From: Chlorobiota bacterium
GTDB lineage: Bacteria; Bacteroidota; Ignavibacteria; Tepidaquicellales; OLB5
Length of the DNA: 50,867 nucleotides
Reading direction: 5' to 3'
NCBI GenBank assembly: GCA_022616535.1
Contig: JAKEEM010000068.1
Location: 1-50,867, forward strand
Below, in pieces: positions 1-36,228 of this stretch. Position 1 is the stretch's first letter, and every line of letters begins with the position of its first letter. The notes under the pieces are model-generated. The model was not told the DNA's origin. It saw only the letters and a program-made list of their open reading frames with translations, and did not search any database. The position numbers and the translations under genes were made by a program.

Positions 1-362
1 CCGCTGTTGAACCAAGCGTGGCAAAATTACTATATCAATTTTAAAATGTCAAGTCAGTGGTGGCACAATTCACCTCATTAGGCATATATGAGGTGAAAGT
101 TTATAAAGTTCATAAAGTTATAAGGTTATAAAGTAAAAAGCAAAAAAATAAAAAAGCAGAAAACAAATCAAAAACAAAAAAAGCAAGAAAAATATTTCGA
201 TTGCTAAAGAATTTTAAAGAAAGTTTGTTAAGACCACTTTTGAAGGAAAAAATTTTTAATTCACAGATAAATTATGTAATTACAAAAGTTATGAACTTTC
301 GATGCATTAGGCACATATGCGGGTGCCTGCCCCTGCTGCAGGCAGGGGACCTAAAAACATTT
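1..362. other. AT-rich noncoding region with repeats
   Basis: No gene can be supported here. A short open frame runs in from the left edge to about base 81 but is too short to identify. Visible structures are an 8-bp-arm hairpin at 71-95 (CACCTCAT / ATGAGGTG), an imperfect 8-9 bp tandem array of the form TTATAAAGT at about 97-136, and poly-A-rich sequence to 190. CATTAGGCATATATG at 76-90 recurs with one change at 305-319, so both are probably copies of one repeat. The second copy is followed by a GC-rich palindrome (330-348). Confidence 0.6.
330..348. repeat. P1-type 19-bp palindrome, variant copy
   Basis: Reads CCCCTGCTGCAGGCAGGGG. It shares its right side and the following GGA(C/G)CTAAAA with the copy at 1733-1751. 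It sits directly behind the CATTAGGC repeat, as if inserted into its end. Confidence 0.6.
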
Positions 363-1587: not shown

Positions 1588-1765
1588 AAAGCAGACCTCC
1601 CCCAACCCCCTCCTTGCTAAGGAGGGGACGTATGACCGTCTCCCCCTTAATAAGGGGGAGAACTAAAGAGGGGGTCTTAAAAGCACCGCTCCTCCGCCAG
1701 CTCTGGCGGATTCCCCTCCTAAAAACAGGAGGCCTGCCTGCTGCAGGCAGGGGAGCTAAAAGCCA
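1588..1765. repeat. Mosaic of four nested GC-rich palindromes
   Basis: The interval from the serine-hydrolase start to the coiled-coil gene (1518-2070) has no credible gene and is largely this mosaic. Perfect inverted repeats are CCCCTCCTT/AAGGAGGGG (1607-1627), CTCCCCCTTA/TAAGGGGGAG (1640-1660), TCCGCCAG/CTGGCGGA (1693-1710) and a 19-bp P1 palindrome (1733-1751). The last two lie as discrete blocks inside a sequence that otherwise reads as a CCCCTCC...AGGAGG repeat. The open frames crossing it are by-products of the repeat. Confidence 0.75.
1733..1751. repeat. P1 19-bp palindrome
   Basis: CCTGCCTGCTGCAGGCAGG: two 9-bp arms around one central base. It is the exact reverse complement of the copies at 18654-18672 and 20344-20362. 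Removing it rejoins the AGGAGG and GGAGCT flanks. Confidence 0.85.
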
Positions 1766-18400: not shown

Positions 18401-18423
18401 CTTTTTTGTTTCAAAATTTTGCA

Positions 18424-18461
18424 TCCGGCAAGCTGAGAAAATGTTCTTTAAGATTTTTCTG
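18424..18461 (+). repeat. Direct repeat R1, leader of a lost tRNA-Thr copy
   Basis: A 38-base block beginning TCCGGCAAGCTGAG is repeated at 18505-18541 with two differences. The offset is 81 bases. The second copy directly precedes intact tRNA-Thr and the first precedes its remnant. Confidence 0.85.
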
Positions 18462-18508
18462 TCTGCCTGAGGCGGATTGGTAGAGCAGAGGCCAACCGGT
18501 TCAATCCG
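18462..18508 (+). pseudogene. tRNA-Thr remnant lacking 5' part and anticodon arm
   Basis: TTGGTAGAGCA and then GAGG-CCGGTTCAATCC match the D-loop side and the variable/T-arm region of the intact tRNA-Thr at 18542. The anticodon stem-loop (about 16 bases) is missing. The 5' half is replaced by a GC-rich near-palindrome (TCTGCCTGAGGCGGA, 18462-18476). It cannot fold as a tRNA. Confidence 0.75.
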
Positions 18509-18541
18509 GCAAGCTGAGTAAATGTTCTTTTAGATTTTTCT
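18505..18541 (+). repeat. Direct repeat R2, leader of tRNA-Thr
   Basis: Second copy of the 38-base block (see 18424-18461), ending at the base before tRNA-Thr. Confidence 0.85.
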
Positions 18542-18614
<73 letters not shown>

Positions 18615-18641: not shown

Positions 18642-18717
18642 GCGGGAGTAACTCCTGCCTGCAGCAGGCAGGCAGTTGGTAGAGTCATCCCGCTGAGCGG
18701 GATTGGCCGCGGGTTCT
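18642..18717 (+). pseudogene. tRNA-Gly remnant B with a 19-bp palindrome in the D arm
   Basis: GCGGGAGTAACT (18642-18653) equals the 5' end of the intact tRNA-Gly at 18761. It is interrupted by palindrome P1 (18654-18672) and resumes with CAGTTGGTAGAGTC (18673-18686). The anticodon-arm position holds ATCCCGCTGAGCGGGAT, and homology ends at GGGTTC. The 3' acceptor strand is absent. Removing P1 restores the tRNA sequence across the junction exactly. Confidence 0.85.
18654..18672. repeat. P1 19-bp palindrome inside the tRNA-Gly remnant
   Basis: CCTGCCTGCAGCAGGCAGG between ACT and CAGTTGG, with no duplicated target bases. It is identical to 20344-20362. Confidence 0.9.
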
Positions 18718-18760: not shown

Positions 18761-18833
18761 GCGGGAGTAACTCAGTTGGTAGAGTCACAGCCTTCCAAGC
18801 TGTTGGTCGCGGGTTCGAGTCCCGTCTCCCGCT
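18761..18833 (+). tRNA. tRNA-Gly (TCC)
   Basis: Acceptor GCGGGAG / CTCCCGC with discriminator T. Anticodon TCC is at 18794-18796, stem ACAGC/GCTGT, T loop TTCGAGT. It is complete, without encoded CCA. Broken copies lie before (18642) and after (19082). Confidence 0.96.
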
Positions 18834-18842
18834 CAGAATATT

Positions 18843-19104
18843 ATGTACTTTGTTTACATTTTAAAAAGTTTAAAATTTGATAAGTTTTACATCGGCCAAA
18901 CTAAAGACATTAAGAAGAGATTAGCTATTCACAATAGTTCCAGAGCAGGGTGGACAAAAAAATATCAACCATGGAAAATTATTCAACTAGAAGAATATAA
19001 ATCGAGAACTGATTCTATAAGAAGGAAACGACGAAATAAAAAGATTTAAAGACATTCAAAAGTTCTTAAAAATCAAAAATGAGTTGGCAGAGTCATCCCG
19101 CTGA
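18843..19104 (+). pseudogene. Frameshifted GIY-YIG nuclease (single-domain family)
   Basis: Starting nine bases after tRNA-Gly, the first 60 codons encode a GIY-YIG domain of the small, stand-alone bacterial type: YFVYILKS (GIY position), KFYIGQTKDIKKRL (YIG and following), then KKYQPWKIIQLEEYKSR. At about 19023-19029 the frame shifts: the original frame stops at 19049, while the frame starting at 19030 continues with DEIKRFKDIQKFLK, the expected family C-terminus. That frame ends at a TGA at 19102-19104, inside the following tRNA-Gly remnant. I therefore call it a pseudogene. A short functional 68-aa product is the alternative. Confidence 0.7.
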
Positions 19105-19141
19105 GCGGGATTGGTCGCGGGTTCGAGTCCCGTCTCCCGCT
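19082..19141 (+). pseudogene. tRNA-Gly remnant C lacking its 5' acceptor strand
   Basis: AGTTGGCAGAGTC (one base different from tRNA-Gly), then ATCCCGCTGAGCGGGAT (19095-19111) in place of the anticodon arm, then an intact T arm and 3' acceptor strand TGGTCGCGGGTTCGAGT to CTCCCGCT. The first 13 bases of the tRNA are missing, replaced by the end of the GIY-YIG sequence. It shares the aberrant anticodon-arm palindrome with remnant B. Confidence 0.85.
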
Positions 19142-19420: not shown

Positions 19421-19438
19421 CAACCTTCTTAGAAAAAA

Positions 19439-19542
19439 GAAAAACACAGAGCAAAAAGAAAAACACAGAGCAAAAAGAAAAACACAGAGCAAAAAGAAAA
19501 ACACAGAGCAAAAGAAAAACACAGAGCAAAAGAAAAACGGAG
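19439..19542 (+). repeat. 18-19 bp minisatellite between tRNA-Trp and secE
   Basis: Three 19-base and two 18-base copies of GAAAAACACAGAGCAAAA(A), then a sixth partial copy in which CACAGAG has become CGGAG. That changed copy provides the Shine-Dalgarno site of secE (19538-19542). The strand is strongly purine-rich. Confidence 0.92.
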
Positions 19543-19549
19543 ATTTGGA

Positions 19550-20343: not shown

Positions 20344-20362
20344 CCTGCCTGCAGCAGGCAGG
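20344..20362. repeat. P1 19-bp palindrome between nusG and rplK
   Basis: CCTGCCTGCAGCAGGCAGG, identical to the copy in the tRNA-Gly remnant. The flanks GAGCGGAGCT and AAGGGACTCATGG join into a sequence resembling a larger interspersed repeat. Confidence 0.88.
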
Positions 20363-36209: not shown

Positions 36210-36228
36210 TCTGCCTTCAGCAGGCAGG
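36210..36228. repeat. P1 palindrome, diverged copy
   Basis: TCTGCCTTCAGCAGGCAGG, two mismatches from the P1 consensus, between the convergent PAP2 and SDR genes. The flanks TTTGCTTCG and CTTTCGCTCGCAAT join into a TTGCTTCG...TCGCAAT repeat like that at 38220-38296. Confidence 0.65.

Follow-up and report, generated by a model that had tools for sequence, protein, structure and literature searches.

A perfect 19-base palindrome, CCTGCCTGC-N-GCAGGCAGG (hereafter P), is well supported as a mobile, discrete non-coding unit of 19 bp. In the genome from which the window derives (G000; 2.9 Mb in 77 contigs)—the window being the whole 50,867-nucleotide stretch analysed, from a Chlorobiota bacterium—P has come to occupy dozens of unrelated locations, most of them between genes. 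An earlier note on the window had proposed a cleanly inserted, mobile mini-palindrome, and this proposal is upheld by genome-wide enrichment, unrelated flanks, empty sites lacking exactly 19 bases, and the presence or absence of P inside a dispersed repeat. The reading that we favor for its movement, with a probability of roughly 45%, is that P is a REP-like hairpin pared to the minimum, which an HUH/Y1 (TnpA-REP-like) transposase moves in trans in single-stranded form.

Copies of P, their flanks and their empty sites

The three copies of the 19-mer previously reported in the window, all W-centered, were each recovered as exact matches (Table 1). Regarding the two variants claimed with them, the one at 36210–36228 stands, whereas the one given as 330–348 proved to be an indel form lying beyond three mismatches. 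In total, four matches to P at ≤3 mismatches were found in the window, against 0.01 expected from shuffles.

Table 1. Copies of P and tRNA-Gly features in the window.
Feature	Coordinates	Strand	Basis
Indel variant of P, CCTGCCCCTGCTGCAGGCAGGGG / CCTGCCCCTGCTGCAGGCAGG	330..350 (bounds approximate)	+	Read directly
P copy, T-centered on + (A-centered on -)	1733..1751	-	Exact match
Degenerate tRNA-Gly copy holding P; 17-nt palindromic anticodon arm	18642..18716	+	Not called by ARAGORN
P copy, A-centered, in D arm of degenerate tRNA-Gly copy	18654..18672	+	Exact match; joined flanks equal intact tRNA-Gly
Intact tRNA-Gly(TCC), empty-site reference	18761..18834	+	ARAGORN
Second tRNA-Gly remnant (3' part), same 17-nt palindromic anticodon arm, without P	about 19081..19141	+	
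P copy between nusG and rplK, within dispersed repeat CCCTGAGCGNAGCG^AAGGGTCTC	20344..20362	+	Exact match
Degenerate P copy	36210..36228	+	2 mismatches

The earlier note had made its reading depend on enrichment of the 19-mer across the genome, which a genome-wide search of G000 revealed: 71 copies at ≤3 mismatches, compared with one for the reversed control. Thirty-eight of these copies are exact, and about 34 of the 38 reside in unrelated flanks, with only about four clearly sharing a flank with another copy. Most (35/38) lie outside predicted ORFs and, where a gene 3' end faces the copy, are separated from it by a median of about 50 bp. A preference for hairpin loops was detected in this genome only as a weak excess (8% versus 2%).

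At the tRNA-Gly site, removal of the 19-mer at 18654 yields TGCGGGAGTAACTCAGTTGGTAGAG, which is identical to the intact neighboring tRNA-Gly over the 5' acceptor strand and D arm and shows no target duplication, just as had been claimed. Because P begins with C and a C then follows it, the insertion point can be placed at either of two adjacent positions (ACT^C or ACTC^A). The 22-nt join of this site returned 10 mismatch-free matches, some of them in tRNA genes of sister genomes. The host is itself a degenerate tRNA copy, with ATCCCGCTGAGCGGGAT replacing ACAGCCTTCCAAGCTGT as its anticodon arm. For the copy between nusG and rplK, the surrounding dispersed repeat occurs without P in L048 and with P in L020, while no orthologous empty site was obtained, the spacer being too diverged between species. 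At P's junction in the CCCTGAGCGNAGCG^AAGGGTC repeat, we also observed a different palindrome-like insert, TCTGCCCGCCCACTGGCGGA (L021:2829).

Empty counterparts of the sites in G000 and in G004, an Ignavibacteria genome of the same family, were sought with the 22-nt join at ≤2 mismatches in 437 kb of sequence. A P-less match across the join was recovered for 17 of the 75 distinct sites of these two genomes. When 16, 17, 18, 20, 21, or 22 bases were removed instead of 19, the P-less matches numbered 0, 0, 0, 2, 1, and 0, respectively. As only the 19-base removal restores the sites well, the unit is exactly 19 bp and is inserted without target duplication. A search of relatives, as the note had suggested, recovered clean empty sites in sister genomes of G004, exemplified by GGAGTG[P]CTTTGAC, whose empty counterparts read GGAGTGCATTGAC and GAAGTGTTTTGAT. 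A folding test of whether exact removal restores hairpins gave no clear optimum at 19.

Distribution across genomes and phyla

Amplification of P is sporadic within a genus: G004 harbors 62 copies, its 12 congeners 0–5 each. Across Bacteroidota, exact P was identified in 27 of 395 genomes, with 97 copies summed (38 of them from G000) and one control match. A scan of species genomes (257 Gb) retrieved at least 119 stretches matching P, against a chance estimate of about 4 (257e9 / 4^18). Among the matches listed, the hosts span Roizmanbacteria and other Patescibacteria, Planctomycetota, Acidobacteria, Nitrospirae, Gamma- and Deltaproteobacteria, Omnitrophota, WOR-3, and Bacteroidota, with per-genome copies reaching 41 (Brocadiaceae), 32 (Gammaproteobacteria), and 24 (Ignavibacteriales). 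The reversed control gave zero matches in all 36 genomes tested. P-rich genomes are mostly metagenome assemblies; P was also found in the isolates Algoriphagus kandeliae (4 copies) and Perlabentimonas gracilis (3), and in a single-contig 2.6-Mb genome (G118; 4 copies). Viral contigs contributed only 12 matching stretches, and a phage vehicle is therefore not favored.

A sister form with a 4-nt spacer, the 20-mer CCTGCCTG-NCGG-CAGGCAGG, was recovered in 31 copies from a Stahlbacteria genome and 21 from a Gottesmanbacteria genome; relative to P, its arms are conserved and its spacer varies. The same 20-mer is amplified in other phyla (G070, G075, G062, and G089). A literature search for the 15–16-nt core of P found no paper containing it. 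Clustering of neighboring ORFs for a P-flanked gene family across phyla revealed no mobility gene, the largest cluster (15 loci) apparently representing a common Bacteroidota protein type beside gene ends.

Hairpin, Y1 transposases and the proposed route of insertion

As a single strand, P forms a hairpin whose 8-bp stem closes a 3-nt C-N-G loop, at -8 kcal/mol for every central base. The stem is nearly invariant, with stem changes rare, while the loop base and spacer vary. On the strand with the central purine, and with one site taken per genome, a pyrimidine occupies the +1 position in 55 of 61 genomes, whereas the mirror position (-1 purine) is unbiased at 26 of 61, with discordant sites at 32:3 (p=4e-7). 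The rule is significant for G-centered copies (p=5e-6), and not for A-centered copies alone (p=0.12, n=17). Since the pyrimidine follows the central-purine strand, insertion of P is strand-specific. Its orientation shows no bias relative to neighboring gene direction (43:38), which fits a process at the DNA level. No conserved GT[AG]G foot was found at the P hairpin, the flanks varying from copy to copy. Our inference is that P is inserted by a process specific to single-stranded DNA and to the hairpin.

The remark in the earlier note that no RAYT is seen holds for the window, but not for the genome, which encodes five Y1_Tnp genes bordered by other palindromes (e.g. GGACTGTTC...GAACAGTCC). 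None of these five has an exact P within about 1.5 kb, and neither has any of 30 further Y1 loci in P-rich genomes. Y1 genes are present in 12 of 13 P-rich genomes checked; in Bacteroidota, however, their presence shows no association with P (absent in about 5/27 P-bearing and 7/37 P-free genomes), and G118 gave no Y1 match. The sole exception found with P beside a Y1 gene is G313, in which a 144-aa Y1 protein (L396:1997–2431; PF01797, E=7e-28) is flanked by five REP-like units: three have P between GAGCCGTC and GATTYATCYGATG, in one case with a mismatch, and the other two carry a different hairpin. As P lies inside the repeats flanking this gene, it is tied to a Y1 system once.

Under the reading that we favor, the hairpin on an exposed strand would be recognized by a single-strand-specific HUH/Y1 (TnpA-REP-like) transposase, cut at both feet, and rejoined 5' of a pyrimidine, with the enzyme working in trans. 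On this view, P would be a REP-like element of which no more than the bare hairpin is left. P-bearing REP repeats in other phyla could represent places where P inserted or serves as the hairpin, and its identity across phyla might reflect horizontal transfer of the element together with its enzyme. An HUH/Y1 enzyme is a candidate carrier, the step from hairpin to enzyme being drawn from background knowledge on IS200/IS605 and REP systems. A more specific claim—that an exact 19-bp palindrome, independently mobile and inserting strand-specifically before a pyrimidine, crosses phylum borders as the smallest mobile DNA described, served by a new enzyme or by a known Y1 subclass without an assigned REP—is put forward tentatively, with the odds leaning somewhat against it.

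An RNA or replication intermediate, whereby a stable hairpin RNA or a piece of nascent strand enters exposed DNA by copying or ligation and no dedicated transposase is needed, is a route that we regard as unlikely, if still deserving serious weight. It has been suggested likewise for the Allomyces mitochondrial double-hairpin elements and the cyanobacterial SDRs, and small mitochondrial hairpin elements behave alike (PMC2800124). The P sites without target duplication, the genomes with P but no Y1 match, and the lack of a P-flanked gene family common to phyla are all consistent with it. However, P is unbiased relative to neighboring gene direction, its exact conservation from phylum to phylum is difficult to explain unless a sequence-specific enzyme is involved, and the G313 Y1 gene's own repeats contain P.

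It is rather improbable that P is merely the tip of ordinary REP elements, its seeming mobility being the amplification of longer repeats. The longer conserved flanks that the earlier note had named as evidence for such an origin are present in G062, G063, G089, and G069, where P occupies a fixed position in longer, REP-like repeats; copy numbers there are consequently in part those of the longer repeat. They are absent in G000, in which free dispersal of P is seen most cleanly. The P-bearing repeats around the G313 Y1 gene also favor this origin. In the gammaproteobacterium G063, however, a GTAG-type REP-like repeat occurs in 19 copies with P and 13 without it at the same junction, and both classes carry the same neighboring TTA/TAA/TCA variants, indicating that P was gained (or precisely lost) repeatedly. 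Together with the unshared flanks of about 34 of the 38 exact copies, the missing GT[AG]G foot, and empty sites that differ by 19 bp only, this leaves a REP-tip origin largely refuted for G000. In G166 (L405–L407), we observed a 5-bp hairpin directly after P, the arms of which covary (CGATC-ACCA-GATCG, CGATC-GGT-GATCG, CGATG-ATCA-CATCG).

Very little probability attaches to P having arisen by point mutation as a selected signal that is bound by a methylase or a recombination factor or serves DNA uptake. As a short, exact, high-copy palindrome it does resemble cyanobacterial HIP1 (PMC4390886). A HIP1-type word is over-represented without an insertion boundary, whereas the empty sites define the boundaries of P; copies are insertions with restorable empty sites, which refutes an origin by point mutation, and copy number differs 30-fold among congeners. 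P may still have a secondary function. An assembly, adaptor, or contamination artifact is scarcely credible: although P-rich genomes are mostly metagenome assemblies and one site (L165) folds back on itself where its contig ends, P occurs in the two isolates and the single-contig genome, the reversed control is empty in 36/36 genomes, and one insertion context is shared by different assemblies (L149 and L170).

P among known very small mobile repeats

P shares with REP elements and REPtrons (TnpA-REP, RAYT) the short, intergenic, high-copy hairpin, the absence of target duplication, the patchy distribution, and a strand-specific single-strand logic. The high copy number and mainly intergenic location typical of REPs are evident in G000, and a further link is that P occurs within REP-like repeats and in one Y1 gene's flanking repeats. 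It differs in being a perfect palindrome of 19 bp, with no GT[AG]G foot and no adjoining Y1 gene in G000; copies flanking a tnpA-REP gene in the same genome were found only in G313. Moreover, a REP family is normally tied to a single Y1 gene (PMC6006769), unlike P, whose identical sequence is present in many phyla. Thus, P works like a REP reduced to its hairpin, yet lacks two REP-defining features, the foot tetranucleotide and, in G000, a cognate gene.

The SDRs of Nostoc and relatives are likewise very small, mobile, hairpin-forming, and nested in other repeats. They are reportedly 21–27 nt long, as described by Elhai and colleagues in 2008, and are not known outside one cyanobacterial group. 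P, being under 30 nt and dispersed, with empty sites showing its mobility, matches this description, but is shorter, perfectly palindromic, and spread across many phyla. For SDR5, insertion is into a short word and always at the same exact position within it (cited in PMC4390886). The mitochondrial hairpin elements (yeast GC clusters, Allomyces double-hairpin elements, and sponge RHEs) are, as is P, tiny palindromes that invade intergenic DNA and appear sporadically among close relatives (PMC2800124, PMC4478555). These elements are organellar and have no sequence in common with P, and yeast GC clusters additionally differ from it in their putative short target duplications. In IS200/IS605 elements, a Y1 transposase cuts the terminal hairpins, and insertion, beside a short target, causes no duplication. 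Such elements encode their own Y1 transposase between distinct ends, whereas P consists of 19 non-coding base pairs without a gene or separate left and right ends, and no guide sequence is detectable beyond its stem.

Relative to known very small mobile repeats, P is new in being shorter, perfectly palindromic, and common to many phyla, and it looks to be among the smallest mobile DNA units known. If this is true, it would set a new lower size limit for a mobile DNA unit, with a bare hairpin as a self-contained substrate. The recurrence of these 19 bases in many phyla amounts to a natural experiment: correlating gene content with copy number could reveal the enzyme and put to the test the ways in which REP-like DNA spreads. 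Inserts this short can affect tRNA copies, hairpins resembling terminators, and the DNA between genes.

Several minor features accompany the tRNA-Gly copies of the window. Both degenerate copies (18642–18716 and 19081–19141) have their anticodon arm swapped for the same-length palindrome ATCCCGCTGAGCGGGAT. At 18423–18542, two copies of a 39-nt segment (ATCCGGCAAGCTGAG...) enclose a further tRNA-like fragment with CTGCCTGAGGCGGA. A small ORF with a GIY-YIG domain (PF01541; 18843–19049) lies between the tRNA-Gly and the tRNA remnant, upstream of rpmG, and belongs to the tRNA-secE-nusG-rplK cluster. Before secE, at 19431–19543, the 19-nt unit AGCAAAAAGAAAAACACAG forms a tandem array.
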